From NCBI GenBank assembly GCA_011391275.1, contig JAABQW010000044.1, forward strand, positions 1 to 35,064: a DNA stretch of 35,064 nucleotides, in the 5' to 3' direction. The notes beneath the pieces were generated by a model that did not search any database, had not been told where the DNA came from, and saw only the letters and a program-made list of their open reading frames with translations. The position numbers and the translations under genes were made by a program. The DNA comes from Betaproteobacteria bacterium (GTDB lineage: Bacteria; Pseudomonadota; Gammaproteobacteria; Burkholderiales; Usitatibacteraceae). Within the stretch, counting starts at the first letter, position 1, and the number at the start of each line of letters is the position of its first letter. Of the stretch, positions 11,505 through 28,461 are shown one piece after another.

Positions 11505-12898
11505 TCAAGTCGTTCATCTCGCGGGTCTTCGGCCGCGGCGGCGCCAAGCAGGCCGCGCACCCGTCGAAGCCCGTCGTCTACGGTCCCGACAAGCACCACA
11601 TCCGCAAGGACCACATCAGCCGCGGCGCCCGCAAGACCTGCGAGGAGCTGCAGCGCGCCGGCCACACCGCGTACGTCGTCGGCGGGGCGGTGCGCGACCT
11701 GATCCTGGGAAGGCGGCCCAAGGACTTCGACGTGGCCACCAGCGCGCACCCCGACGAGGTGCGCTCGCTCTTCCGCCGCTCGCGCATCATCGGCCGGCGC
11801 TTCCAGATCGTGCACGTGATGTTCGGCGCGGAGACGGTCGAGGTCTCGACCTACCGCGCCCACTTCACGACGAAGGACCCCGAGGCCGACGACGACGAGA
11901 AGGACAGGCAGGACGTGCACGGCCGCGTGCTCTCCGACAACGTCTTCGGCACGCAGGCCGAGGACGCCGTGCGCCGCGACTTCACCGTGAACGCGCTCTT
12001 CTACGACCCGGTGAAGGAGGAGGTCTGGGACTACCAGAACGGCGTGAAGGACCTCGTCGCGAGGAAGCTCGTGATGATCGGCGACCCCGCCACGCGCTAC
12101 CGGGAGGACCCGGTGCGGATGCTGCGCGCGGCCCGCCTGTCGGCCAAGCTGGGCCTCACCATCGACCCGAAGACCGCCGCGCCGATCCGCGAGCTCAAGC
12201 ACCTCCTGGAGAACGTGCCCCAGGCGCGCCTCTTCGAGGAGATCCTCAAGATGCTGCTCTCGGGCAACGCCGTGGCCTGCGTGCAGCGGCTGCGCGACCT
12301 GGAGCTGCACCACGGCCTGCTGCCGCTGCTCGACGACTCGCTCGAGGACGCGGCGACCGGCCCGTTCGCCATGGCCGCGCTCAAGGCGACCGACGACCGC
12401 CTGCGCGAGGACAAGCCCGTCTCGCCCGCCTTCCTGCTGGCCGCGCTCCTGTGGGGCCGCGTCGAGCGGCGCTGGCACGAGCTCGAGGAGAAGGGCCAGC
12501 CGTCGACGCCCTCGCTGCATTCGGCGATGCACGACGCGCTGGACGCGCAGCGCGAGTCGCTCGCCATCCCGCGCCGCTTCGACGCGACGATGAAGGAACT
12601 GTGGCTGCTGCAGCCGCGCTTCCCGCAGCGCGGCGGCACGCGCCCCTTCCGGCTGCTGGAGCACCCGCGCTTCCGCGCCGCCTACGACTTCTTCGAGCTG
12701 CGCGCGCAGGCCGGCAACGCGCCCCTGGAGATCGCGCAGTGGTGGGAGAAGTTCCAGGACGCCTCCGGCGAGGAACGCGAGCGCATGCTGCACGCCGACG
12801 AGGGCCCGAAGAAGAAGAAGCGCCGCCGGCGCGGCGGCAAGCGCCGTCCGGAAGACGGCGGCTCGCCCGAGGAAGTGGCGCCGGGCGCCGACGAATGA
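11501..12898 (+). CDS. pcnB: Poly(A) polymerase I
   Basis: PcnB adds 3' poly(A) tails to RNA, promoting decay. The 465-residue protein has the class II nucleotidyltransferase core: VVGGAVRDLILGRRPKDFDV with D75 and D77 as metal ligands. RRDFTVNALFYD follows near residue 168, then GDPATRYREDPVRMLRAARL. The tail KKKKRRRRGGKRR is a basic RNA-binding extension seen in PcnB but not in CCA-adding enzymes. That, with the length, favours PcnB over cca. The ATG at 11501 follows CGGAGG. The stop overlaps the folK start (ATGA). Confidence 0.94.
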   Translation: MIKSFISRVFGRGGAKQAAHPSKPVVYGPDKHHIRKDHISRGARKTCEELQRAGHTAYVVGGAVRDLILGRRPKDFDVATSAHPDEVRSLFRRSRIIGRRFQIVHVMFGAETVEVSTYRAHFTTKDPEADDDEKDRQDVHGRVLSDNVFGTQAEDAVRRDFTVNALFYDPVKEEVWDYQNGVKDLVARKLVMIGDPATRYREDPVRMLRAARLSAKLGLTIDPKTAAPIRELKHLLENVPQARLFEEILKMLLSGNAVACVQRLRDLELHHGLLPLLDDSLEDAATGPFAMAALKATDDRLREDKPVSPAFLLAALLWGRVERRWHELEEKGQPSTPSLHSAMHDALDAQRESLAIPRRFDATMKELWLLQPRFPQRGGTRPFRLLEHPRFRAAYDFFELRAQAGNAPLEIAQWWEKFQDASGEERERMLHADEGPKKKKRRRRGGKRRPEDGGSPEEVAPGADE

Positions 12899-16356: not shown

Positions 16357-16388
16357 AGAAGGGCCGGTCGGAGACGACCGGCCCTTCT
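16357..16388. terminator. Strong bidirectional hairpin between panD and the MmgE/PrpD gene
   Basis: AGAAGGGCCGGTCG pairs perfectly with CGACCGGCCCTTCT across a GAGA tetraloop (14-bp stem). It begins 20 bases after the panD stop and ends four bases before the stop of the convergent MmgE/PrpD gene. The T-tract is poor (TGCATT), but position and stability suit a shared terminator. Confidence 0.85.
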
Positions 16389-16392
16389 GCAT

Positions 16393-17730
16393 TCAGGCGC
16401 CCCCGGTGCCGAGACTGGCCGCGGCCTCCAGGGTCCACAGCCGGTGCGCGAGGTCGCCCGCGCGCTCCGCGCCGATCACCGGCGTGGCCAGCTCGTGGAA
16501 CTTGGCGTCGAGCTCCGCGTCGCTCAGCGGCGCGTCGGGATCGCCCTTGCGCGTCGGCTGCAGCCACGAGCCCCTCGCGCCGTCGTCCCAGTCGATGCTG
16601 ACGCGTGCCGCGCGCTTGCCGGGGAACGCCGCATCCAGTTCCGGGTCGACGGCGATCTCGATGCGGCCCATCAGGGCGCGTATCGCGGGATCGGCCAGGC
16701 GCTCCGGGGAGAAGGCGTCCAGCCGCACGGCTCCGCGCGCCAGCGCGTGCGCCACGACGTAGGCGAGGCTGAACTTCGCCAGCGCCGCCGTGGATGCCTC
16801 GGCATTGCCGGCGACGTCCAGCGCGACCCGGTAGGTTTCCACGCGGACCCGCGCGATGTCGCCCGCGGTCCTCCCGCTGCGGGCCATGACCTCGAGGGCG
16901 CCGTCGATGGCGGCGAAGGTGTGCCCGCAGCAGCCGTGGTTCTTGAACGTCATCAGCGAGATGTTCCAGACCTTGCCGAGGCTCTCGCACGCCTTGTCCC
17001 AGTCGGGGCCGTTGCTCATGGCCTTGCCGAGGCCCGCCTCGCCGTCGATCACGTCCAGCGATCCCGTCACGCCTTCGCGCGCGGCCAGCGCCGCGAGGAC
17101 GCCCGCCTCGGCGGCGCGCCCGGCATGGAGAGGCTTGGACATCGAGTCCATGCGGAACGCCTGCTGGAGGCCCGCCGCGAAGGTCGTCACCGTGGCCAGC
17201 GCGTGGGCGAACTGCCCGCGGGAAAGGCCGAGCAGCATCGCCGCCGCGGCCGCGGCGCCGAAGCTGCCCACCGTGCCCGTCGTGTGCCAGTGGCGGTAGT
17301 GCGTCCGGCCCAGGGCGGCGCCGATGCGGGTCGAGATCTCGTAGCCGGCCACGACCGCCCGGAGGAACTCCTCGCCGCTCGCGGCCCGGTCCTGCGCGAC
17401 GGCGAGTGCCGCCGCGATCGTGGGCGCGCCCGGATGGTAGATCGCGTCGCGGAAGATGTCGTCGAACTCGATGGCGTGCGAGGCGGTGCCGTTGATGAGG
17501 GCGGCGGCGCGCACCGTCGCGCGCCGGCCCAGCGCCAGCGTGGCTCCGCCACGGTCCAACTCCCCGGCCAGCGCCCGCTCGAGGAGGGTGGCGGGCGCGA
17601 CCACGGCGCCGGGAAACAGCGCCGCGTGCCAGTCGACGACGGCCCGCTTCGCGTGGTGCAGCGCCTGCGCGGGCAGCCGCTGGCTGCGCAACTCTTCCGC
17701 GTAGGCCGCGAACCGCTCGGTCACGAACAC
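16393..17730 (-). CDS. MmgE/PrpD-family protein (2-methylcitrate dehydratase / aconitate decarboxylase fold)
   Basis: This 445-residue protein has the family's conserved patches in order: EFDD...YHPGAP, HWHTTGTVGSFGA, SKPLHAGRAAEAG and FKNHGCCGHTFAAID. These carry the His and Lys residues thought to be catalytic in PrpD and cis-aconitate decarboxylase. So it is probably an active hydro-lyase, decarboxylase or epimerase on a small di/tricarboxylate. No prpB or prpC is near, so a methylcitrate-cycle role is unlikely. The GTG start at 17730 follows a GGAGGG Shine-Dalgarno. It is the last gene of the TPP enzyme-TctC unit, 15 bases after the TctC stop. Confidence 0.85.
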   Translation of the reverse strand: MFVTERFAAYAEELRSQRLPAQALHHAKRAVVDWHAALFPGAVVAPATLLERALAGELDRGGATLALGRRATVRAAALINGTASHAIEFDDIFRDAIYHPGAPTIAAALAVAQDRAASGEEFLRAVVAGYEISTRIGAALGRTHYRHWHTTGTVGSFGAAAAAAMLLGLSRGQFAHALATVTTFAAGLQQAFRMDSMSKPLHAGRAAEAGVLAALAAREGVTGSLDVIDGEAGLGKAMSNGPDWDKACESLGKVWNISLMTFKNHGCCGHTFAAIDGALEVMARSGRTAGDIARVRVETYRVALDVAGNAEASTAALAKFSLAYVVAHALARGAVRLDAFSPERLADPAIRALMGRIEIAVDPELDAAFPGKRAARVSIDWDDGARGSWLQPTRKGDPDAPLSDAELDAKFHELATPVIGAERAGDLAHRLWTLEAAASLGTGGA

Positions 17731-17745
17731 GGGGGGACCCTCCGC

Positions 17746-18723
17746 TCAGTTGGCCTTGGCCCCGGCCATCTTGACTACCTTGGCCCACTTCTCCGTCTCG
17801 GAGCGGATGTAGGCGGCGAACTCTTCCGGCGTGCTGCCGACGGGGTCCACGCCCTGCTGGACGAGCTTCTCGCGGATCTCGGGGATCCTGATGATGCGGG
17901 CGACCTCGGCCTGGATCTTCATGGCGATCTCGCGGGGCATGCCGGCCGGGCCGAGCAGGCCGAACCACGACGAAGCCTCGAAGTCGGGATAGCCCAGTTC
18001 CGCGACCGTGGGCAGGTCGGGCGAGGACGCCGAGCGCGTCTTGGTGGTGACGGCGATGCCGCGCAGGCGCCCGGAGCGCACGTGCTGGATGACGGACGGG
18101 ATCGTGGCGAACATGAAATGCACCTGCTCGCCGGACAGGAGGTCGTTGAGCGCCACCGCCCCCTTGTAGGGAACGTGCGTCGCCTCGACGCCCGCCATGG
18201 ACTTCAGGAGCTCGCCTGACAGGTGCGCCGAGGTGCCCACGCCGGTGGAGGCGAAGAAATACTTGTTCGGGCTGGCCTTGAGCAGGCGCAGGAAGTCCGG
18301 GAAATCCTTTGCCGGCATGGAGGTGGGGTTCACCACGAGCATGTTGGGCGCGCCGACCACCTGCGAGATCGGCTGGAAGTCCTTGATGTTGTCGTAGGGC
18401 ATGCTGGAATAAAGCGTCGCGTTGATCGCGAGCGGCCCCACCGACCCCATGAGCAGCGTGTAGCCGTCCGGCTTCGCCTTGGCGACCAGGTTGGCGCCGA
18501 TGTTGCCGCCGGCGCCGGGCTTGTTCTCGACGACCACGGTCTGGCCCCAGGTCTTGCGGAACTCCTCGGCCATGATGCGCGCGACGAAGTCCGTCGACCC
18601 CCCCGGCGAGAAGCCCACGACGATCGTGATCTGGCGGTTGGGCCAGTCGCCCTGCGCCAGGGCAAGCGTCGAGGCGGCCAGCGCGAGCAGGGCGGCTGCG
18701 GCTTTCAGGATCAGGTTCTTCAT
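17746..18723 (-). CDS. TctC/Bug-family tripartite tricarboxylate transporter receptor 1
   Basis: This is a periplasmic solute receptor of 325 residues. The ATG at 18723 after AAGGAGGA gives a signal peptide (MKNLILKAAAALLALAASTLALA) and a mature protein beginning GDWPNRQITIVVGFSPGGSTD. That is the standard Bug opening, where the PGG loop contacts the ligand carboxylate. GAGGNIGANLVAKAKPDGYTLL, THVPYKGAVALNDLLSG and LPTVAELGYPDFEASSWFGL complete the pattern. Ligands of such receptors are usually di/tricarboxylates or aromatic acids. No TctA or TctB membrane subunit is in the window. It sits between the TPP enzyme and the MmgE/PrpD gene. Confidence 0.93.
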   Translation of the reverse strand: MKNLILKAAAALLALAASTLALAQGDWPNRQITIVVGFSPGGSTDFVARIMAEEFRKTWGQTVVVENKPGAGGNIGANLVAKAKPDGYTLLMGSVGPLAINATLYSSMPYDNIKDFQPISQVVGAPNMLVVNPTSMPAKDFPDFLRLLKASPNKYFFASTGVGTSAHLSGELLKSMAGVEATHVPYKGAVALNDLLSGEQVHFMFATIPSVIQHVRSGRLRGIAVTTKTRSASSPDLPTVAELGYPDFEASSWFGLLGPAGMPREIAMKIQAEVARIIRIPEIREKLVQQGVDPVGSTPEEFAAYIRSETEKWAKVVKMAGAKAN

Positions 18724-18802
18724 TTGTCTGTCTCCTCCTTGTTGTTGAAGCACGCTCGGTTGCTGCAGGCGGGGAGCCGCGCCTCTCGCGGGCGCTGGCC
18801 CC

Positions 18803-20407
18803 TCAGAATTGCGCCAGGTACTGCGCCGGATCGATGTGGACGCCCACCACCAGGGGCCTCGTCGCCGCGCGCGGCTGCGCGAGGATGCGCTCCAGCCCCG
18901 CGGCCGAATCGGCAACGGCGCCGTCGCACCCCATGGACTGGGCGAGCTTCTCGATGTCGGTCGCGTCGATGAGGGTTCCCCAGCTCGGGTACTCGCGCTG
19001 GGTCTGCTTGAGCTCGATGCGGTTGAGGCTGTTGTCGCAGAACACGACCACCAGCGGGTCGATCTTCAGGCTGGCGGCGAGGCGCAGCTCGCCCTGCACC
19101 ATCGCGAGGCCCCCGTCGCCGGTGAAGCACACGACCGGGCGATCCGGGTGGACGAGCTTGGCCGCGATCGCCGCCGGAAGCGAGAAGCCCATCGAGGACA
19201 GGCCGTTGGTCATGAGGGTGGAGCGCGGCGAGTAGGTGGTCCAGCCCTGGCCCACCAGGATCTTGTGCGAGCCCACGTCCGCGGTGGCGATCGTCTCCCG
19301 CGGCATGGCGCGGCGCACGACGTCGATCACGTCGGTCGGGTTGAGGCGGCCCGCGGTGCGACCCTCGTAGTACTTCGACACGAGCGCGTTCCGGTGCGAG
19401 GCGACCTCGGCCACCGTCCACCGGGCTTCGCCCGCGCAGGCGTCGGCGAGTGCGCCGAGAATGGCGGCCACCGGGCCGACGAGCTCGACTTCCGCGGGGT
19501 AGATCTGGTCGGTGTTCGGCGTCGAGTCGACATGGATGGTCGGGACATCCACGCTCCACGGCTTGATGAGCTCCACCGCGTCGAAGCCCGCCGCGATGAT
19601 GAGGTCGCAGCCGGCGAGGAACTGCCACATGAAGGCGTTGCAGGCCATGTCCAGCGTCCCCGCGTACAGGGGGTGGTCCTCGGCCAGGACGCCCTTGGCC
19701 ATCGGGGCCACGACCACGGGGCAGCCCAGCGTCTCGGCCAGCCGCGCGAGGCTTGCGGAAGCGTTGCCGCGGACGGCGGCGATGCCGGCGAGGATCACCG
19801 GGCGGCGGGCGCCGCGGATCTTCGACACGACGCCGGCCACGGCGGTCCCGGAGCCGAACGCGAAGGGCAGCTCCTGCGCGGCGAGCGGCGGCAAGAGGAT
19901 GCGGTCGTCCACGGCCTGCGCGCCGACGACGTCGGCGGCGAGCGTCATGTGCACCGGTCCCGGGCGCTCGGCCATCGCGGTGCGCACGGCCTTGCGCAGG
20001 ATGATCGCGGCGGTGTGCGGCTGGATCGTCGTCGCCCACTTGCACACCGGGGCGAAAATGCGCTCCTGGTCGACCACCTGGTGGGTGAAGTAGGGCTCGC
20101 GCTTGCTCTCGATCTGCCCGGAGATGGCGAGCATCGGCACGCGGTCGAGCCAGGCGTTGGCCACGGCGTTCACGAGGTTCGTCGACCCCGGCCCGAGCGT
20201 GGAGACGCAGACGCCGGGGAGCCCCGTGAGCATCCCGGCGGCCTCCGCCATGAGACCGGCCGTGCCCTCGCGGCGCGCCAGCACGAAGTCGAGGTTTTCG
20301 CGCCGGCAGGACTCGAGGAGCTCGACCGTGGGGTCCCCGGGATACCCGAAGACGTGGCGCACGCCGAGGGCACGCAGGTAGCGGACCAGGAATTCGGAGA
20401 CGTTCAT
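18803..20407 (-). CDS. Thiamine-diphosphate-dependent enzyme (acetolactate synthase-like large subunit / 2-oxoacid decarboxylase)
   Basis: This 534-residue protein has the three ThDP-enzyme domains. The PYR domain carries the catalytic glutamate E47 (ARREGTAGLMAEAAG) and STLGPGSTNLVNAVANAW. A middle domain has RRPVILAGIAA. The PP domain carries the metal motif GDGGLAMVQGE (430-440) and N459 about 27 residues on. No ilvN-type small subunit is adjacent, so branched-chain amino acid synthesis is unlikely. Decarboxylation or carboligation of a 2-oxo acid from the local pathway is more likely; the substrate is unknown. It heads a minus-strand unit with a TctC receptor and MmgE/PrpD, and is divergent from the DUF1932 dehydrogenase across a palindromic operator. 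Confidence 0.85.
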   Translation of the reverse strand: MNVSEFLVRYLRALGVRHVFGYPGDPTVELLESCRRENLDFVLARREGTAGLMAEAAGMLTGLPGVCVSTLGPGSTNLVNAVANAWLDRVPMLAISGQIESKREPYFTHQVVDQERIFAPVCKWATTIQPHTAAIILRKAVRTAMAERPGPVHMTLAADVVGAQAVDDRILLPPLAAQELPFAFGSGTAVAGVVSKIRGARRPVILAGIAAVRGNASASLARLAETLGCPVVVAPMAKGVLAEDHPLYAGTLDMACNAFMWQFLAGCDLIIAAGFDAVELIKPWSVDVPTIHVDSTPNTDQIYPAEVELVGPVAAILGALADACAGEARWTVAEVASHRNALVSKYYEGRTAGRLNPTDVIDVVRRAMPRETIATADVGSHKILVGQGWTTYSPRSTLMTNGLSSMGFSLPAAIAAKLVHPDRPVVCFTGDGGLAMVQGELRLAASLKIDPLVVVFCDNSLNRIELKQTQREYPSWGTLIDATDIEKLAQSMGCDGAVADSAAGLERILAQPRAATRPLVVGVHIDPAQYLAQF

Positions 20408-20470
20408 GGCTTGCTTTCCGTTCGGTGCGGTCGAGGGGGCATCCGCGACGTTCCGGAGAATCTAGCAGAC

Positions 20471-20492
20471 ACGGTATACGGTTGTATACCGT
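20471..20492. promoter_or_regulatory. Palindromic operator candidate (ACGGTATA-N6-TATACCGT)
   Basis: A perfect 8-bp inverted repeat with a 6-base spacer sits in the divergent region between the TPP-enzyme gene and the DUF1932 dehydrogenase gene. It overlaps the presumed -35 of the plus-strand promoter. GTATAC-centred palindromes are typical of GntR-family (FCD type) repressors. No GntR gene is in the window, so the regulator would be encoded elsewhere. Confidence 0.6.
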
Positions 20493-20511
20493 CGCCCGAC
20501 CCGCGTATGAT
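20482..20511 (+). promoter_or_regulatory. Promoter candidate TTGTAT-N18-TATGAT for the DUF1932-ALDH unit
   Basis: The -10 TATGAT (20506-20511) lies 18 bases after TTGTAT (20482-20487). Transcription would begin at about 20518-20520, at or next to the ATG of the gene, implying a leaderless or near-leaderless mRNA. The -35 lies within the palindromic operator, consistent with repression. Confidence 0.5.
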
Positions 20512-20519
20512 TTCCGTCC

Positions 20520-21428
20520 ATGAGCGCGCCCGCCCTGCCCGCATTTGCACTGATCGGCTTCGGCGAAGCCGGGCAGGCGCTCGCCGAGGGATTGCGCGGC
20601 GAAGGCGTCGACCGGCTCGCGTCCTGGGACATCCTGTTCCCGGACGCCGAGAAGGGCGAGCCGCTGCGCGCGGCCGCCGGCCGGCTGGGCGTGCGGGTCG
20701 CCACCGACTGCGTGGATGCGATCCGCGGCGCCGACGTCGTCATCGCCGCGGTGACGGCCTCCTCGAACCTCGACGCTGCCGCTTCAGCCGCGGCCGGACT
20801 TTCCGCGCAGCAGTTCTACCTCGACGTCAATTCCGTGTCCCCGCAACGCAAGCGCGAGGCGGCGCGCATCGTGGGAGATCGCGCCCGCTTCGTGGACGTG
20901 GCCGTCATGGCGCCGATCCTGCCGTTGCGCCACAGGACTCCCATGCTCGCGTCCGGGCCCGCCGCCGAAGACCTGCTGCCGCTCCTGCGGCGCTGCTCAA
21001 TGAGCATCGAAGGCGTCGGCGCCGACGTCGGCGCCGCGATCGCGATGAAGATGGTGCGAAGCGTCATGATCAAGGGGCTCGAGGCCCTCACGCAGGAGTG
21101 CTTCCTGGCCGCGCAGTCGAGCGGCGTGGAGGACCGGCTGATCGCCTCGCTCACCCAGTCCTTCCCGACGCTCGACTGGGCGGGGATGGCCGACCACAAC
21201 CTCGAACGCATGGCGAGCCATGGCATCCGGCGCGCGGCGGAAATGCGCGAGGTCGCGAAGACGCTCGAGGCCCTGGGCGTCGAGCCGCTGATGACGCGCG
21301 GCACCATCGAGCGCCAGCAGCGCACGGGCGACGCGAAGCTCCGGGACGCGTTCGGCGGCAAGGTGCCGCTGGACCGCCGCGCGATCATGGAGGCGCTGCG
21401 CAAGGCCCGGAAGGACGAGCCCGTCTAG
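20520..21428 (+). CDS. NAD(P)-dependent dehydrogenase, 6-phosphogluconate/3-hydroxyisobutyrate type with DUF1932 C-terminus
   Basis: The 302-residue protein opens with FALIGFGEAGQALAEGL, a Rossmann motif of the beta-hydroxyacid dehydrogenase superfamily. GADVVIAAVTAS and FYLDVNSVSP follow, then RFVDVAVMAP. The helical part AIAMKMVRSVMIKGLEALTQE matches the region with the catalytic lysine of the superfamily (K-x-x-x-N in classic members), and the end fits DUF1932. It probably oxidises a beta-hydroxy acid or reduces the matching oxo acid. No Shine-Dalgarno precedes the ATG. It is the first gene of a unit with the aldehyde dehydrogenase 29 bases downstream. Confidence 0.8.
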   Translation: MSAPALPAFALIGFGEAGQALAEGLRGEGVDRLASWDILFPDAEKGEPLRAAAGRLGVRVATDCVDAIRGADVVIAAVTASSNLDAAASAAAGLSAQQFYLDVNSVSPQRKREAARIVGDRARFVDVAVMAPILPLRHRTPMLASGPAAEDLLPLLRRCSMSIEGVGADVGAAIAMKMVRSVMIKGLEALTQECFLAAQSSGVEDRLIASLTQSFPTLDWAGMADHNLERMASHGIRRAAEMREVAKTLEALGVEPLMTRGTIERQQRTGDAKLRDAFGGKVPLDRRAIMEALRKARKDEPV

Positions 21429-21457
21429 GGCCCCACTCCATCTCTCGAGGGAAACCC

Positions 21458-22918
21458 ATGTCCGGAACGAACAAGGCAAACGCAGGCGCGTCGGCGGATG
21501 CCGTGCCGCGGCTGCGCATGAGGATCGGCGGCGAGTGGCGCACCGGCAGCCCCGAGTCGGCCGTCGTAGACCCCTGGCGCGGCGAGAAGGTGGCCCTTGC
21601 GCCGGAATCCTCGCTGAAGGACCTGGACGACGCCCTCGCGGCGGCGGTTGCAGCCAAGGCGGTCATGGCGGCCATGCCCGGGTACCAGCGCGCGGCGCTG
21701 CTGCGCAAGGTCGCAGCACTTCTCGCCGAGCGCGCCGACGCCATCGCGGAGGTCATGACGCGCGAGACGGGGAAGGCCATCAAGGACGCGCGCGCGGAGG
21801 TCACGCGGTCGCAGGACACGATCCTGCTTTCCGCCGAGGAGGCGATCCGGATCGAGGGCGAGCAGGTCCCGCTGGACGGCACGGCCATGGGTGCGGGCAA
21901 GCTCGCCTTCCTGCTTCGCTTCCCCGTCGGCGTGGTCGCGGGCATCACCCCGTTCAACGCGCCCTTCAACCTCGCCTGCCACAAGATCGCCCCGGCCCTC
22001 GCGGCCGGAAACTCCATCGTCCTCAAGGCGCCGCCGCAGTCGCCCGCGGTCGTGGCGAGGCTGGTGGAACTGTTCGTCGACGCCGGCGCCCCCCCGGGCT
22101 CCGTGAACCTCCTGTACGGCAACGCGGTGGGGCCGGCCCTCGTGCGCGACCCGCGCGTGGACTTCGTGTCCTTCACCGGCTCGAGCCGGGTGGGCGCGGA
22201 GATCAAGGCGGCCAGCGGGCTGCGCCGCGTGGCGCTGGAGCTGGGCGGCAACGGCACGACGATCGTCCACTCGGACGCGGACGTGGCGGAGGCCGCCACC
22301 CTTTGCGCGCGCAATTCCATGCGGCTCGCGGGCCAGAGCTGCATCTCGGTGCAGAACGCCATGGTGCACGAGAGCGTGTACGACGCCTTCGTCGAGCGCC
22401 TCGTCGCCGAGGTGAAGACGCTCGAGGTCGGCGATCCGCTGGACGCGGCCACGGACGTGGGCACGCTGATCGACGAGGCCGCGGCCAGGCGGGTGGAAGG
22501 CTGGGTCGCCGAGGCGGTGTCGCAGGGCGCCCGCATGCTCACGGGCGGCGGCCGGCGCGGTGCGCAGTACGAGCCGACGGTGCTCGTGGACGTGAAGCGC
22601 ACGATGCGCGTGGTGTGCGAGGAGGTGTTCGGCCCCGTGGTGACGGTGCAGCGCTACCGGGACTTGAAGCCCCTCTTCGAGCAGATCAGCGCCGACCAGT
22701 ACGGGCTGCACTGCGGGATCTTCACGAAGTCGATCCAGGTGGCGTTCGACGCGATCCGGTCGCTTCGCGTAGGCGGCCTCATCGTCAACGGCACGTCCAC
22801 CTGGCGCACCGACCAGCTCGCCTACGGCGGCGTCAAGTCGAGCGGCATCGGCCGGGAAGGGCCGCGCTACGCCATCCGCGACATGACCGAGGAGCGCCTG
22901 GTCCTGTTCAACCTCTAG
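21458..22918 (+). CDS. NAD(P)-dependent aldehyde dehydrogenase
   Basis: The track ORF (1369 residues) is an artefact of G+C-rich read-through. The ATG at 21458 after GAGG gives 486 residues. The catalytic set is complete: N167 (TPFNAPFN), K190 (IVLKAPPQSP), E261 (LELGGN) and C295 (AGQSCIS). EEVFGPVV and GGVKSSGIGREG follow at the C-terminus. It resembles the lactaldehyde/sulfolactaldehyde/phosphonoacetaldehyde dehydrogenase group, but substrate cannot be read reliably. Beside a TPP-dependent decarboxylase it could oxidise the aldehyde that enzyme releases. Its TAG stop overlaps the stop of the convergent LysR gene (CTAG). Confidence 0.9.
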   Translation: MSGTNKANAGASADAVPRLRMRIGGEWRTGSPESAVVDPWRGEKVALAPESSLKDLDDALAAAVAAKAVMAAMPGYQRAALLRKVAALLAERADAIAEVMTRETGKAIKDARAEVTRSQDTILLSAEEAIRIEGEQVPLDGTAMGAGKLAFLLRFPVGVVAGITPFNAPFNLACHKIAPALAAGNSIVLKAPPQSPAVVARLVELFVDAGAPPGSVNLLYGNAVGPALVRDPRVDFVSFTGSSRVGAEIKAASGLRRVALELGGNGTTIVHSDADVAEAATLCARNSMRLAGQSCISVQNAMVHESVYDAFVERLVAEVKTLEVGDPLDAATDVGTLIDEAAARRVEGWVAEAVSQGARMLTGGGRRGAQYEPTVLVDVKRTMRVVCEEVFGPVVTVQRYRDLKPLFEQISADQYGLHCGIFTKSIQVAFDAIRSLRVGGLIVNGTSTWRTDQLAYGGVKSSGIGREGPRYAIRDMTEERLVLFNL

Positions 22919-23865
22919 GCCGCGACCGGCTTCTTCGGGCGGGCGGAGGCCGCACGCCCGGGCGATGCGAACCCGGGCCAGTCGTGGGCCATCGCGAGGA
23001 AGCGTTCCAGCAGCGGCGTCCTGTCGCCGGAGCGCCACGCGAGGAGCAGCCGGCTCCTCGATGCCGTCCCGGCGATCGGCCTGTGGACCACGCCGGGAAT
23101 GCTCGCGTTGCGGTAGGTGTCCGGGAGGATCGATATCCCCGTGCCCGCCGCGATCAGCGCGAGGATGGTCACGCCCTCGCGCGCTTCCTGAGCCACGCGC
23201 GGGGCGAAGCCGGCCTGGCTGCACAACCCCATCACGTGGTCGTAGAGGCCGCAGCCGATGCCGCGCGGGAAGAGGATGAACGGCTCGTCGGCGAGGTCGG
23301 CCATCCTCACGCCGGCGCGCGCGCGCGCCAGCCGGTGCCCGGACGGCAGCACCGCCGTCAGCTCGTCCTCCCAGATGTTGCGCACCGCGATTTCCGGGCC
23401 GGGCGCGAACTGGTGGGAAGGCCGCAGGAAGCCCACGTCGATGCGGCGGTCGGCGAGCGCCTGGAGCTGGGCGCCCGTGGACAGGTGGCCCATCTCCACG
23501 CGAACGCCGGGGAATCGCTCGCGAAAGGCCTGGATGAACCGCGGGAACGGCTCGAACATGGGGACGGACCCCGTGAACGCCATGCGGATCTCGCCGGCCT
23601 CGCCGCGGGCCGCGCGCCGGACCTCGTCGCCCGCGTCGTCGAGCTGCGCCAGGATGGAGCGGGCCTGCAGGAGGAAGAGGCGCCCCGGTTCCGTGAGCCG
23701 GACGCTTCTCTTGGTCCTCTCGAGCAATTTCGTCCCGAGCTCGTCCTCGACCGCCTTGATCTGCTGGCTCAAGGGCGGCTGGCTCATGTGCAGTCGGCGA
23801 GCGGCCTGGCTGAAGTTCAGCTCCTCGGCGACGGCGACGAAGTAGCGCAGCTGGCGGATGTCCAT
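22915..23865 (-). CDS. LysR-family transcriptional regulator
   Basis: The ATG at 23865 (not the track start) gives 316 residues with the typical LysR N-terminus MDIRQLRYFVAVAEELNFSQ and a winged helix-turn-helix to about residue 60 (AARRLHMSQPPLSQQIKAVE). A periplasmic-binding-type effector domain follows (IRMAFTGSVPMFEPFPRFIQ onward). It is divergent from the LigJ-type hydratase gene, so it most likely activates unit C in response to a pathway intermediate and represses itself. A T-N11-A box is present in the shared region. Its last codon overlaps the ALDH stop on the other strand. Confidence 0.93.
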   Translation of the reverse strand: MDIRQLRYFVAVAEELNFSQAARRLHMSQPPLSQQIKAVEDELGTKLLERTKRSVRLTEPGRLFLLQARSILAQLDDAGDEVRRAARGEAGEIRMAFTGSVPMFEPFPRFIQAFRERFPGVRVEMGHLSTGAQLQALADRRIDVGFLRPSHQFAPGPEIAVRNIWEDELTAVLPSGHRLARARAGVRMADLADEPFILFPRGIGCGLYDHVMGLCSQAGFAPRVAQEAREGVTILALIAAGTGISILPDTYRNASIPGVVHRPIAGTASRSRLLLAWRSGDRTPLLERFLAMAHDWPGFASPGRAASARPKKPVAA

Positions 23866-23869
23866 GCTT

Positions 23870-23884
23870 ATAGGGAATGCGTAT
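23870..23884. promoter_or_regulatory. LysR-type box candidate (ATA-N9-TAT)
   Basis: ATAGGGAATGCGTAT fits the T-N11-A rule with dyad ends. It lies five bases upstream of the LysR ATG and about 97 bases upstream of the hydratase ATG, where an autoregulatory and activation site is expected. An AT-rich AAATATATATTGG stretch follows, probably part of a promoter. Confidence 0.4.
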
Positions 23885-23980
23885 GACTGGAGGGCGAAAT
23901 ATATATTGGACTCGACCCAGCCGCGATGCAAACATCGGCCGGATACCCTGCGAGGGTCGCCTCCGGCGGCCGCCCCACCG

Positions 23981-24994
23981 ATGATCATCGACTGCCACGG
24001 CCACTACACGACGGCGCCCAGGTCCCTGGAGGGATGGCGGGCGAAACAGATAGAGGCGCTGGACGGCAAGTCGCCTTCGCCCAGGCCGACGGAGCTTTCC
24101 GTCAGCGACGACGAGCTGCGCGAGAGCCTGGAGAACGCCCAGCTCAGGCTGCAGCGCGAGCGCGGCACCGACCTCACGCTCTTCTCCCCGCGCGCGATGG
24201 CGATGTCCCACCACATCGGTACCCAGGAGACGAGCCTGGAGTGGTCGCGCCTGTGCAACGACCTCATCCACCGCGTGTGCACGCTCTATCCCCGCAACTT
24301 CGCGCCGGTGTGCCAGCTTCCACAGTCGCCCAGCGTGCCCCCGGCGAGCTGCGTCCCGGAACTGGAGCGCTGCGTGAAGGAGCTGGGCTTCGTCGGCTGC
24401 AACCTGAACCCGGACCCCTCCGGCGGCCACTGGCAGGACCCGCCCCTCACGGACCGCTGGTGGTACCCGCTCTACGAGAAGCTGGTGGAGCTCGACGTGC
24501 CTGCCATGGTGCACGTGAGTGCCAGCTGCAACCCCTGCTTCCACGCGGTGGGCGCGCACTACATCAACGGGGACACGACGGCGTTCATGCAGTTCCTCAC
24601 GTCGGACCTCTTCAAGGACTTCCCGACCCTCAGGATCGTGATTCCCCACGGGGGCGGGGCCGTTCCCTACCACTGGGGGCGCTACCGGGGCCTCGCGCAG
24701 GACATGGGCCGCCCGCCGCTCGAGGAACTGCTGCTGAAGAACGTCTACTTCGACACCTGCGTCTACCACCAGCCGGGCATCGACCTGCTCCTCAAGGTGA
24801 TTCCCGTGGAGAACATCCTCTTCGCCTCCGAGATGGTGGGCGCGGTCCGCGGCGTCGACCCGCGCACGGGCCACTACTACGACGACACGAAGCGCTACAT
24901 CGACTCGGCTCCCGGCCTCACGGCCGCGGACCGCCAGAAGATCTACGAAGGCAACGCCAGGCGGGTCTACAGCCGCCTGAAGCTGCCCGCCTGA
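23981..24994 (+). CDS. ligJ: 4-oxalomesaconate hydratase, LigJ type (amidohydrolase superfamily)
   Basis: LigJ hydrates 4-oxalomesaconate to 4-carboxy-4-hydroxy-2-oxoadipate in the protocatechuate 4,5-cleavage pathway. The ATG at 23981 gives 337 residues beginning MIIDCHGHYTTAP. H6, H8, H178, H223 and E284 fall at the numbers I recall for the zinc and catalytic residues of Sphingobium LigJ. NPDPSG, DRWWYPLYEKL and IPHGGGAVPYHWGR also match. The earlier track start at 23858 overlaps the LysR gene and adds residues with no family match. It leads a five-gene unit with two receptors and two aldolase-like genes; LigK aldolases belong to the same fold as those. A different branched unsaturated acid could be the real substrate. 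Confidence 0.8.
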   Translation: MIIDCHGHYTTAPRSLEGWRAKQIEALDGKSPSPRPTELSVSDDELRESLENAQLRLQRERGTDLTLFSPRAMAMSHHIGTQETSLEWSRLCNDLIHRVCTLYPRNFAPVCQLPQSPSVPPASCVPELERCVKELGFVGCNLNPDPSGGHWQDPPLTDRWWYPLYEKLVELDVPAMVHVSASCNPCFHAVGAHYINGDTTAFMQFLTSDLFKDFPTLRIVIPHGGGAVPYHWGRYRGLAQDMGRPPLEELLLKNVYFDTCVYHQPGIDLLLKVIPVENILFASEMVGAVRGVDPRTGHYYDDTKRYIDSAPGLTAADRQKIYEGNARRVYSRLKLPA

Positions 24995-25026
24995 GCGAAC
25001 CACGAACCGCAAGGAGGACTTCCGAA

Positions 25027-26016
25027 ATGATTTCCAGCATCCGAAAGACGACCCGCGCCGCGGCCGTGCTCATGGCCGCTTTCCTGGCGATCGGCACCGC
25101 ACCCGTCGCGATGGCCCAGGCATATCCCTCCAAGACCGTGAAGATCCTGGTCGGCTTCGCCCCCGGCGGCGCCATGGACATCGTGGCGCGCACGGTGGGG
25201 CAGAAGCTGGCCGAAGGCCTCGGGCAGACGGTGATCATCGAGAACAAGCCGGGCGCGGCCAGCAACATCGCCATCCGCCAGCTGATCGAAAGCCCGCCCG
25301 ACGGCTACACGGTGATGCTCGTCGCCAACGGCCTCACGGCGAACCCGCTCCTCTACACGCAGCAGCCGTTCGATCCCAACACGGACGTGGTACCCATCTC
25401 GCTCGTCGCCCGCCTGCCGGTGGTGATCGCCGCCGGCGCGAAGTCGGAGCTCTCCACGCTCAGGAAGGTCATCGAAGCGTCGAAGGCGCGCCCCGGGAGC
25501 GTGAACTACGGGTCGCCCGGGCAGGGCTCCACGCCGCACCTCGCGACGGAGCTCTTCGCGCGCGGGGCAGGCATCGAGCTCACGCACGTCCCGTACAAGG
25601 GCGGCAAGCCCGCGATCGCCGACGTCCTCGGCGGGCAGCTACCGCTCGTCGCGGTGAACGCGGTCGAGGTCCTGCCGCTCGTGAAGGACGGCAAGCTTCG
25701 CGTGCTGGCGGCGCTGAGCGCCCAGCGCGTCTCGACGCTGCCGGACGCGCCGACGATCGCCGAATCCGGCTACCCGGGCTTCGAGGCTTCCGTCTGGCAC
25801 GCCTTCATCGCGCCGAAGGGCACGCCGCCGGCGATCGTCGCGAGGCTGAACGCCGAGATTCACAAGGCGCTCGCGGACCCGGTGGTGAAGGAGCGGCTGG
25901 CCAACCTCGGCGCGGAAGTGTCGCCGACCACGCCGCAGGAGCTGGCCACGCTCGTGCGCACCGAGTACGAGCGCTACGGCAAGCTCATCCGCGAGGCGAA
26001 CATCAAGGTGAACTGA
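25027..26016 (+). CDS. TctC/Bug-family tripartite tricarboxylate transporter receptor 2
   Basis: The ATG at 25027 after AAGGAGGA gives 329 residues with a signal peptide ending APVAMAQA and the Bug opening YPSKTVKILVGFAPGGAMDIVA. Further motifs are ENKPGAASNIAIRQL, NYGSPGQGSTPHLATELF, THVPYKGGKPAIADVLGG and DAPTIAESGYPGFEASVWHA. It starts 32 bases after the hydratase gene, so it is probably coexpressed and captures the pathway substrate in the periplasm. Membrane partners TctA/TctB are absent here. It is clearly diverged from receptor 3 next to it, so the pair is not a recent duplication. Confidence 0.93.
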   Translation: MISSIRKTTRAAAVLMAAFLAIGTAPVAMAQAYPSKTVKILVGFAPGGAMDIVARTVGQKLAEGLGQTVIIENKPGAASNIAIRQLIESPPDGYTVMLVANGLTANPLLYTQQPFDPNTDVVPISLVARLPVVIAAGAKSELSTLRKVIEASKARPGSVNYGSPGQGSTPHLATELFARGAGIELTHVPYKGGKPAIADVLGGQLPLVAVNAVEVLPLVKDGKLRVLAALSAQRVSTLPDAPTIAESGYPGFEASVWHAFIAPKGTPPAIVARLNAEIHKALADPVVKERLANLGAEVSPTTPQELATLVRTEYERYGKLIREANIKVN

Positions 26017-26061
26017 AGGGTGGGGCACGGCAGCCCACGGGAAACGACAAAGGAGGATTCC

Positions 26062-27027
26062 ATGATCAGGAACTTCGCGCGTGCGGCTGCCGTCGTGCTG
26101 GCGGCTGCCATCCTGCCCGCAATGGCCCAGGAGTACCCGACCCAGACGATCAAGATCGTGTCCCCCTACCCGCCCGGGGGGACCACCGACATCCTCGCGC
26201 GCATGCTGACGCCGAAGCTCACCGCGGCACTCGGGCAGACGGTCATCGTGGAGAACAAGGCCGGAGCGAGCGGCAACATCGGCACGGAGCTCGTTGCGCG
26301 CTCGAAGCCAGACGGCTACACGCTGCTCCTCGGCAACAACACGGGGGTGGTGATCAACCAGAGCCTCTACAAGCTCAACATCATCCCGGCACAGGCGCTC
26401 GCGCCCGTTGCGCTCGTGGGGATGGTGCCCACGGCGCTCTATGTGCACCCGTCGGTGCCGGCGAAGACGGTGGCCGAGTTCGTGGCCCTGGTGAAGGCCT
26501 CGCCGGGCAAGTACTCGTTCGCCTCCGCGGGCAGCGGCAGCCCGCAGCACCTGGCCGGCGAGATGCTCAAGATGGCCTTCGATCTCGACATGGTCCACAT
26601 TCCCTACAAGGGTTCCGGGCCCGCCATCATGGACGTCATCGGCGGGCAGGTCCCGGCGAGCTTCGAGTCGACGGTGGTGCTCCAGCCGCACATCGCCGCC
26701 GGCCGCGCGCGGCCGCTGGCGACGAGCGGCGCGAAGCGCTCGATCTCGCTGCCGGACGTGCCCACGATGATGGAATCGGGCGCGAAGGACTTCGACCTCA
26801 CGAACTGGTATGGCCTGTTCGCTCCGGCCGGGACACCGCCGGCCATCGTCAACCGCCTCAACGCCGAGGTGCTCAAGATCCTCGCCGAGCCGGAGATCAA
26901 GGAGCGCCTGGCGAAGATGGGCTCCGCCGTCGATCCCCTCACCGCCGCCGAGTTCGCCCAGTTCATCAAGGAGGAAGTGCCGCGCTGGGCCGCGGTCGTG
27001 AAGAAGTCCGGCGCCAGGATCGACTGA
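26062..27027 (+). CDS. TctC/Bug-family tripartite tricarboxylate transporter receptor 3
   Basis: The ATG at 26062, seven bases after AAAGGAGGA, gives 321 residues; the track start is 14 codons too early. The signal peptide ends AILPAMAQ and the mature start is EYPTQTIKIVSPYPPGGTTDILA. ENKAGASGNIGTELVARSKPDGYTLLLG and VHIPYKGSGPAIMDVIGG are close to the family consensus. PDVPTMMESGAKDFDLTNWYGL follows. Two different receptors in one unit suggest two related ligands, or that one acts as a sensor. It lies 31 bases before the first RraA-like gene. Confidence 0.93.
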   Translation: MIRNFARAAAVVLAAAILPAMAQEYPTQTIKIVSPYPPGGTTDILARMLTPKLTAALGQTVIVENKAGASGNIGTELVARSKPDGYTLLLGNNTGVVINQSLYKLNIIPAQALAPVALVGMVPTALYVHPSVPAKTVAEFVALVKASPGKYSFASAGSGSPQHLAGEMLKMAFDLDMVHIPYKGSGPAIMDVIGGQVPASFESTVVLQPHIAAGRARPLATSGAKRSISLPDVPTMMESGAKDFDLTNWYGLFAPAGTPPAIVNRLNAEVLKILAEPEIKERLAKMGSAVDPLTAAEFAQFIKEEVPRWAAVVKKSGARID

Positions 27028-27058
27028 TGCGGTCGCGCGGAAAGCCGGTGGAGACGCC

Positions 27059-27730
27059 ATGAACGCGTCGGATCCCCTCGTCGAGCGCCTGTCGCTCCTG
27101 GACTGCTGCGCCGTGTCCGACGCCATGGACAGGCTGAAGCTCGCCGGCGTGGTGATCGGGCTTCACCAGCTCTCCACTTCCCGGCGAATCGCGGGCCGGG
27201 TCGTCACGGTAAAGCTCGGCACCGGAACCGCAACCCCGGGGGGCCCGGGGCCGGTGCGCCACCTCGGCACGACGGCCATCGAGACCGCCCGTCCGGGCGA
27301 CGTCATCGTCGTCGAGCAACGCAGCGGGATCGACGCAGGAAGCTGGGGAGGCATCCTGTCGCTGGGTGCGAAGCTGCGCGGCGTGGCCGGCGTGATCGCG
27401 GACGGCCCGGTGCGGGACATCGACGAGGCGAAAGGGCACGACTTCCCCGTCTTCGCGCGCGCCTGCACGGCGCGCACGGCCCGGGGACGGATCGTCGAGC
27501 TGGCGACCAACGGGCCGGTCAGGATCGGGGAGGTCGATGTGTCCCCCGGCGACTACGTGGTCGCCGACGGCAGCGCCGTCGTGTTCATCCGCTCGGCGGA
27601 TATCGACCGCGTCCTGGAGGCCGCGGAGCTGATCGCCGGGCGCGAAGCGCTGATGGCGAAGGCGCTGCGCGAGGGCAAGCCGATCACCGAGGTGATGGGC
27701 GCCAACTACGAACAGATGCTGAAGGGATAG
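27059..27730 (+). CDS. RraA/LigK-family protein 1 (HMG/CHA aldolase-like)
   Basis: This 223-residue protein has the RraA/class II HMG-CHA aldolase fold: TARPGDVIVVEQR, KLRGVAGVIADGPVRDIDE and GDYVVADGSAVVFI. In true aldolases of this family, which cleave 4-carboxy-4-hydroxy-2-oxoadipate to pyruvate and oxaloacetate, a D-x20-R-D motif binds the metal. Here R119-D120 is present, but the position 21 residues before R119 is G98 (SWGGILS). Activity may therefore differ or depend on its partner. It is unlikely to be the RNase E regulator RraA in this catabolic context. RraA-like gene 2 starts 10 bases downstream. Confidence 0.8.
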   Translation: MNASDPLVERLSLLDCCAVSDAMDRLKLAGVVIGLHQLSTSRRIAGRVVTVKLGTGTATPGGPGPVRHLGTTAIETARPGDVIVVEQRSGIDAGSWGGILSLGAKLRGVAGVIADGPVRDIDEAKGHDFPVFARACTARTARGRIVELATNGPVRIGEVDVSPGDYVVADGSAVVFIRSADIDRVLEAAELIAGREALMAKALREGKPITEVMGANYEQMLKG

Positions 27731-27740
27731 GAGACACGCA

Positions 27741-28412
27741 ATGGCGCTGGGCTCTCGCATCCTTCCGAGTCCGGAGCGCGCCGACCAACGGCTGCTCGAG
27801 CGCCTCCGTACGCTGCCCGTGTCCAACGTGAGCGACAACATGCAGCGCTCCCACGGCACGAACCTGGAGCCGATCCACCGCGGCGGCAGGATGGTGGGCA
27901 CCGCGTTCACGGTGAGGATGCGCCCGGGCGACAACCTGATGGTGCACAAGGCCATCGACATGGCCGCGCCGGGCGACGTAATCGTGGTCGACGCGGGCGG
28001 GGCGCTCGAGAACGCGCTCATCGGCGAGCTGATGGCGGGGTGGGCGCGCAAGCGCGGCGTGGCGGGATTCGTGATCGACGGTGCCATCCGCGATTCCGAG
28101 GCGCTGTCCGAGGGCGACTTCCCGGTCTACGCCGCGGGGGTGACACATCGCGGCCCCTACAAGGACGGCCCGGGCGAGATCAACGTGGTGGTGTGCGTCG
28201 CAGGCATGGTGGTGCGCCCCGGCGACCTGGTCGCCGGCGACCACGACGGCGTAGTGGCGATTCCGGCCGAGGAGACGGAGCGCGTCATCGCCGCGGCGGA
28301 AGCCCAGAACCGCAAGGAGCAGGCGGCGCTGGCGGCCATCGAGGCCGGCACCTGGGACCGCAGCTGGGTCGACGGAGCGCTCAAGGCGCGCGGGTGCGAC
28401 CCGGCAGGCTGA
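27741..28412 (+). CDS. RraA/LigK-family protein 2 (HMG/CHA aldolase-like)
   Basis: This is another 223-residue RraA-fold protein, well diverged from its neighbour. Motifs are LPVSNVSDNMQRSHG, RMRPGDNLMVHKAID, APGDVIVVDAGG, IGELMAGWARKRGVAGFVIDGAIRD and GDLVAGDHDGVVAIP. The metal motif is near complete, with E96 in place of Asp and then R117-D118, so it is the better candidate for the catalytic aldolase. Downstream of a LigJ-type hydratase, a 4-carboxy-4-hydroxy-2-oxoadipate aldolase (LigK/ProA type) is the natural guess. It is the last gene of the unit; a hairpin terminator begins 15 bases after its stop. Confidence 0.82.
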   Translation: MALGSRILPSPERADQRLLERLRTLPVSNVSDNMQRSHGTNLEPIHRGGRMVGTAFTVRMRPGDNLMVHKAIDMAAPGDVIVVDAGGALENALIGELMAGWARKRGVAGFVIDGAIRDSEALSEGDFPVYAAGVTHRGPYKDGPGEINVVVCVAGMVVRPGDLVAGDHDGVVAIPAEETERVIAAAEAQNRKEQAALAAIEAGTWDRSWVDGALKARGCDPAG

Positions 28413-28426
28413 TCGTTGTCGCCATT

Positions 28427-28461
28427 CGAAGACGGGCGCCCTCGGGCGCCCGTCTTCGTTT
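28427..28461 (+). terminator. Rho-independent terminator after the hydratase/aldolase unit
   Basis: CGAAGACGGGCGCCC pairs with GGGCGCCCGTCTTCG (15 bp) across a minimal loop and is followed by TTT. It separates the catabolic unit from the MCE transport operon, whose promoter starts about 20 bases later. Confidence 0.85.

Follow-up and report, generated by a model that had tools for sequence, protein, structure and literature searches.

The closest described relatives of the genes considered here are the tcuABC operons of tricarballylate utilization, whose regulator is the LysR-type TcuR, the lower pathway of protocatechuate 4,5-cleavage and the pairing of a cyanobacterial alpha-ketoglutarate decarboxylase with succinic semialdehyde dehydrogenase. 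We analyzed a 35,064-nucleotide stretch of contig JAABQW010000044.1 (GenBank assembly GCA_011391275.1), referred to as the window, which forms contig C35 of a metagenome-assembled genome (MAG) of 3.27 Mb and 80.8% completeness assigned to the Usitatibacteraceae. The window carries an island of eleven genes in three units. Unit 1 is tpp-tctC-mmgE, in which tpp encodes a thiamine diphosphate (ThDP)-dependent enzyme, here termed the TPP enzyme. Unit 2, duf1932-aldh, is divergent from unit 1, and a lysR gene sits between unit 2 and the third unit, ligJ-tctC-tctC-rraA-rraA, divergent from ligJ. An original prediction, made by reading this DNA alone, had given this gene content, the coordinates and the three-unit layout, all of which were borne out: the eleven genes are intact and show coding-type codon-position GC, and each family name is backed by Pfam and NCBIfam.

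We propose that the genes of the island form a module for the catabolism of a branched tricarboxylate, acting together with a tricarballylate-oxidizing TcuAB regulon encoded elsewhere in the genome, a proposal that we hold to be about evenly balanced. It would bring together enzyme families that are each known, in a combination that seems not to have been described. In the open-access literature we found no description of this set of genes, which may be described elsewhere, and no work linking tricarballylate to either 4-oxalomesaconate or a thiamine decarboxylase.

The TPP enzyme and its conserved neighbours

The gene tpp (18803-20407, minus strand; PF02776/00205/02775) encodes an acetolactate-synthase-like enzyme. 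A scan with the TPP alignment returned 34 loci at 56-92% identity, after which the next matches drop to about 30%. Within the order the enzyme was found in 2 of 180 genomes, and the full set is therefore rare there. Cultured strains with the TPP gene include Thalassobaculum fulvum KCTC 42651 (L070) and Bradyrhizobium sp. LTSP885 (L068). For loci with usable flanks, genes lying up to 5 kb from the TPP orthologue (near) were compared with those at 5-10 kb (far); for some lower-GC contigs (e.g., L030 and L044) genes were taken from tblastn calls. MmgE/PrpD was found 13 times near and never far, TcuA (tricarballylate dehydrogenase) and DUF1932 11 times each near and never far, and LigJ six times against none, with TctC also enriched (15 near, 3 far). 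The original prediction would have failed had the neighbours not been conserved together in relatives; it passes this check, with DUF1932, MmgE/PrpD, LigJ and TctC enriched around the TPP gene. Of 32 loci, 11 have TcuA next to the TPP orthologue. A core partner was present in 27 of 32 TPP loci and in 1 of 46 distant TPP loci, a comparison confounded by taxonomy as the controls are mostly Streptomyces; we judged these controls biased and used the near/far comparison in their place.

The arrangement of the genes bears on whether the island serves a single pathway, as originally predicted, or two adjacent and separate ones, a GntR-controlled TPP/TctC/MmgE plus DUF1932/ALDH set and a LysR-controlled LigJ/TctC/RraA set. 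Two pathways would account for the distinct regulators and promoters, for the many related LigJ loci without TPP, for the presence of LigJ within 6 kb at just 6 of 32 TPP orthologues, one of these at 22% identity, and for the lack of RraA enrichment around TPP (1 near, 5 far). They are at odds with three arrangements seen elsewhere. In locus L046, from an island-carrying congener, panD directly adjoins mlaE and the whole island, bar rraA2, follows the mlaE-mlaD-c24 block, so that the island stays together through rearrangement. In L074, from another such congener, aldh is followed after 11 bp by ligJ, the intervening lysR being absent. In L055, L057 and L059, an operon divergent from tpp carries LigJ together with DUF1932 and a decarboxylase-like gene. 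We consider two separate pathways rather unlikely, and a single pathway is partly supported by linkage and by the L046 and L074 loci, with RraA standing apart from this support.

Several features of these loci were recorded alongside. G213 shows an L046-like arrangement at the mmgE end, and the position of the island between panD and mlaE here and after the mlaE-mlaD-c24 block in L046 and L167 represents a local block rearrangement. The decarboxylase-like protein of L055 (6640-8896), L057 and L059 has 265-287 aa and no Pfam or NCBIfam match, and the operons of L055 and L059 add a VOC-dioxygenase-like gene, possibly indicating an aromatic route without LigAB. In L049, L051 and L053 the gene divergent from the TPP gene encodes a 1178 aa indolepyruvate ferredoxin oxidoreductase-type protein, with DUF1932 downstream in L051 and L053; this protein could be an oxidative alternative to the TPP enzyme and ALDH. 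In L060, the TPP gene is separated from a TctC by a gene (11672-12643) for a LigI-like amidohydrolase (45%) whose N-terminus is signal-like.

Residues E47, H381, D431, D458, R463 and K467 are present in 30 of 30 TPP orthologues, and K382 in 29. In a cyanobacterial alpha-ketoglutarate decarboxylase, His385, Lys386, Asp435, Asp462 and Lys471 are reported to bind 2-oxoglutarate or ThDP, with His385, Lys386 and Lys471 in contact with the substrate, and position 467 is a Leu (PMC10418658). H381, K382, D431, D458 and K467 match these residues by a constant +4, which is a numbering offset and not an alignment, and by the same offset the invariant R463 corresponds to Leu467. This pattern is suggestive of a decarboxylase acting on a 2-oxo acid with distal carboxylates, and we propose that tpp encodes a 2-oxo-polycarboxylate decarboxylase. 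The enzyme stayed below every acetolactate synthase cut-off shown in NCBIfam (best 403.8 vs 509), and a role in acetoin or acetolactate metabolism, considered on account of the AlsR-like LysR and the acetolactate-synthase-like TPP enzyme, was rejected as family cut-offs were not met.

A carboligase resembling glyoxylate carboligase, with DUF1932 reducing the product as tartronate semialdehyde reductase does, would suit membership in the acetolactate synthase family. It would also suit the pairing of TPP with three hydroxyacid dehydrogenase types, i.e., DUF1932 at many loci, a 3-hydroxyisobutyrate type in L050 and a 2-hydroxyacid type in L069. Glyoxylate carboligase, however, has a Val at the position of the catalytic Glu47, which is kept in the TPP enzyme. 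A carboligase would moreover leave the TcuA, MmgE and LigJ partners and the shared operator-like site described below unexplained. We regard it as quite improbable and retain the decarboxylase proposal.

An operator-like site shared with gntR-tcuAB

The divergent region between tpp and duf1932 spans 112 bp and holds the palindrome ACGGTATAC-GGTT-GTATACCGT at 20471-20492 (0 expected in shuffles), which is absent from the original prediction. A 16-bp GTATACnnnnGTATAC site in this region is kept where the flanks diverge. As GTATACGGTTGTATAC (20474-20489), a candidate operator for a GntR/FCD regulator within the divergent promoter region, it is perfectly conserved in L046 and L074, whose surroundings have diverged, and hence in three genomes in all. 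In the island genomes G000, G180 and G207 the site pattern occurs in exactly two places per genome, with a chance expectation of ~0.01 per 3.27-Mb genome based on the composition of the window. The second copy lies between tctC and gntR-tcuA-tcuB. There, TcuA (724 bits vs a cut-off of 369) and TcuB (436 bits vs 246.6) are well above their NCBIfam cut-offs, and the regulator adjoining tcuA carries GntR and FCD domains. Five congeners, G211 and G212 among them, retain the gntR-tcuA site.

As the only other copy of the site precedes gntR-tcuA-tcuB and tctC, units 1 and 2 appear joined to a GntR-controlled tricarballylate regulon via a shared candidate operator, which this GntR may bind. The site, common to both units and to gntR-tcuAB and missed in the original prediction, points toward C6 acids of the tricarballylate type on the product side. 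A tie between tricarboxylate catabolism and TcuAB is the part of our proposal that we consider rather probable. In the alphaproteobacterial loci L070 and L076, gntR, tcuA and tpp are adjacent and TTGTACACCCTTGTATACAA precedes tpp. The GntR-type palindrome disfavours LysR as the regulator of units 1 and 2. Phosphonate use, considered for L058 with its phnR-like GntR and phnS2-like transporter, was discarded with scores far under the cut-offs. Another TcuA-linked set was seen in G005 (L170), which groups gntR, TcuA (62%), LeuCD-like proteins, TctC, MmgE and an isocitrate-lyase-type protein.

The remaining genes and the ends of the island

The third unit begins with ligJ (23981-24994, plus strand), whose product is a full-length homologue of a solved 4-oxalomesaconate hydratase (PDB 2gwg, 539 bits over residues 1-334). 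This score and the presence of the LigJ and RraA families would be expected if the island served lower protocatechuate or gallate catabolism, with LigJ and RraA (as LigK) acting on products of ring cleavage by enzymes encoded elsewhere in the genome, and the original prediction had named protocatechuate and gallate among possible sources. In the LigJ tree, all LigABC- or pmdU-linked copies fall into one clade of 24 rows with a support of 100/99, and the copies of the window, L046 and L074 fall outside it. Inside this clade there are also three rows labelled 'non', one of which shows a LigABC-linked locus a second time. In G000, G180 and G207, which are incomplete MAGs, no true LigB was detected; each has only a DODA-type relative, at about 110-121 bits vs about 263-280 for the top LigB matches. 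The RraA proteins, in addition, score below both LigK cut-offs (TIGR02798, 304.5; NF006731, 179), rraA2 reaching 145 and 162 bits and rraA1 79 and 84. On the LigJ tree and the LigB search an aromatic pathway is unlikely and the protocatechuate or gallate source was rejected; we rate this reading as very improbable.

Of the two RraA proteins, rraA2 (27741-28412, plus strand) is an RraA/LigK-type aldolase candidate that exceeds the PRK06201 cut-off (311 vs 231 bits), and rraA1 (27059-27730, plus strand; PF03737, 111 bits) is a diverged RraA-like protein. Both keep the Arg123-Asp124 pair of the P. putida aldolase (VRD, IRD), with Glu in rraA2 at the position corresponding to Asp102, which rraA1 has lost. 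L046 has an rraA1 ortholog at 73%, after which rraA2 is missing. The order proposed originally, with an aldolase acting ahead of the TPP enzyme, found no evidence in the near/far counts for RraA. In L138 a second LigJ paralogue (39%) has an rraA1-type gene (63%) as its neighbour, which suggests a tie of rraA1 to LigJ-like enzymes.

The gene mmgE (16393-17730, minus strand, GTG start; PF03972 216 bits, PF19305 147 bits) has as its nearest solved relatives in the PDB iminodisuccinate epimerase (148 bits) and, at 123 bits and below, cis-aconitate decarboxylase/IRG1, a likeness at the level of the MmgE/PrpD family. The product of duf1932 (20520-21428, plus strand; PF09130, 71 bits) is a beta-hydroxyacid-dehydrogenase-like oxidoreductase whose PDB relatives, 4ezb and 3qsg, are of unknown function. 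Several protocatechuate operons have a DUF1932 gene of about 40% identity next to ligK and ligI, so the association of DUF1932 with LigJ is seen there, too. This gene lies between ligK and ligI in the 4,5-cleavage clusters of L022, L023, L025, L028 and L030, and we found no described function for the DUF1932 gene of protocatechuate clusters. The aldehyde dehydrogenase gene aldh (21458-22918, plus strand; PF00171, 474 bits) has lactaldehyde dehydrogenase as its best NCBIfam match, at 445 bits under a cut-off of 650.

The three receptors of the tripartite tricarboxylate transporter type are tctC1 (17746-18723, minus strand), tctC2 (25027-26016, plus strand) and tctC3 (26062-27027, plus strand), with 246, 255 and 244 bits to PF03401. 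The original prediction had included these receptors; all three are present, but with 20 TctC matches in this MAG they carry little weight alone, and we discarded their number as evidence. The LysR-type regulator is encoded at 22915-23865 (minus strand; PF00126, PF03466).

The island is flanked by housekeeping or otherwise unrelated genes, with panC and panD at its mmgE end and mlaE and mlaD at its rraA2 end. Hairpins are found at both ends. Between the convergent genes panD and mmgE, a perfect inverted repeat at 16358-16387 (RNA fold -30.2 kcal/mol, z -3.8) is a probable bidirectional terminator. After rraA2, a perfect inverted repeat at 28428-28457 within a fold of -43.3 kcal/mol (z -5.1) probably terminates the third unit. 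Both are GC-rich and fold better than every shuffle, in support of the terminators originally predicted on both sides; their T-tracts, however, are short and an intrinsic-terminator scan listed neither.

Proposed route and its nearest relatives

Gene families, linkage, the operator-like site, the LigJ clade and the lack of a detected true LigB are features read from the sequence; all substrates, the order of steps and the roles of DUF1932 and MmgE we infer. In the proposed route, the TctC receptors would bind the acid for uptake, and DUF1932 may interconvert hydroxy and oxo forms upstream. The TPP enzyme would then decarboxylate, non-oxidatively, a C7 2-oxo-tricarboxylate such as 4-carboxy-2-oxoadipate, or its 4-hydroxy form 4-carboxy-4-hydroxy-2-oxoadipate (CHA), to a C6 semialdehyde, which ALDH would oxidize to tricarballylate, or to citrate from CHA. 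CHA is HOOC-CO-CH2-C(OH)(COOH)-CH2-COOH, a structure from which, on chemical grounds, decarboxylation and oxidation would give citrate, and from its deoxy analogue tricarballylate. TcuAB would dehydrogenate tricarballylate to cis-aconitate, and MmgE/PrpD or aconitase could pass this into the tricarboxylic acid (TCA) cycle. LigJ might hydrate an unsaturated C7 acid, the product of which RraA could cleave to pyruvate and oxaloacetate as an alternative exit. This route accounts for the tricarboxylate-type partners TcuA, MmgE, LeuC-like, LigJ and TctC. The combined decarboxylation and oxidation by the TPP enzyme and ALDH, as written here, is tentative, and we lean against it in this exact form.

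Several observations weigh against the route. The tcuAB genes lie outside the island and are present also in G211 and G212, where no TPP gene was found; conversely, G213 carries tpp and gntR was not detected there. The GTATAC site is missing from most TPP orthologues, and the likeness to alpha-ketoglutarate decarboxylase is, as stated, a residue offset. ALDH is not enriched near TPP (5 near, 3 far), the ligJ-rraA unit has a separate LysR, and RraA, with its counts given above, is the weakest link. The island genomes are also incomplete MAGs, in which links between organisms and genes are based on bins.

A related reading is a hitherto undescribed connection by which C7 acids of the 4-oxalomesaconate type would enter the TCA cycle directly, with LigJ forming CHA, the TPP enzyme citrate semialdehyde and ALDH citrate, thereby bypassing the aldolase; unsaturated or reduced analogues would give aconitate or tricarballylate. 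We consider this bypass unlikely.

Proteobacterial genomes commonly encode TctC receptors, RraA paralogues, DUF1932 and MmgE proteins to which no substrates have been assigned. The regulon proposed here would tie members of these four families, together with an unnamed TPP enzyme family, to one acid class and to TcuAB. If true, it would reveal a new way of catabolizing branched tricarboxylates, and DUF1932, an unexplained gene of protocatechuate operons as well, would gain a defined context.

Compared with known systems, the island resembles the tcuABC operons in that TcuA and TcuB above their cut-offs are linked to it by the operator-like site. It differs in its GntR/FCD regulator, in its TctC receptors and in its TPP enzyme, ALDH, DUF1932, MmgE and LigJ, which are outside the described operon; the MFS transporter TcuC was not seen beside tcuAB, a genome-wide search for it not having been made. 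With the protocatechuate 4,5-cleavage lower pathway (LigJ/PmdE, LigK/PmdF) the island shares a LigJ-type hydratase and RraA-type aldolase candidates, and with pmd-type clusters also DUF1932, located there between ligK and ligI. Unlike that pathway, it is without LigABC and LigI, its LigJ belongs to another clade and its RraA proteins remain below LigK cut-offs. Cyanobacterial alpha-ketoglutarate decarboxylase and succinic semialdehyde dehydrogenase likewise pair an acetolactate-synthase-like ThDP enzyme with an ALDH, converting a 2-oxo acid to the next shorter acid, and the His, Lys and Asp positions match by numbering offset; the island enzyme is set apart from this decarboxylase by an extra invariant Arg463 and by tricarboxylate-type neighbours.

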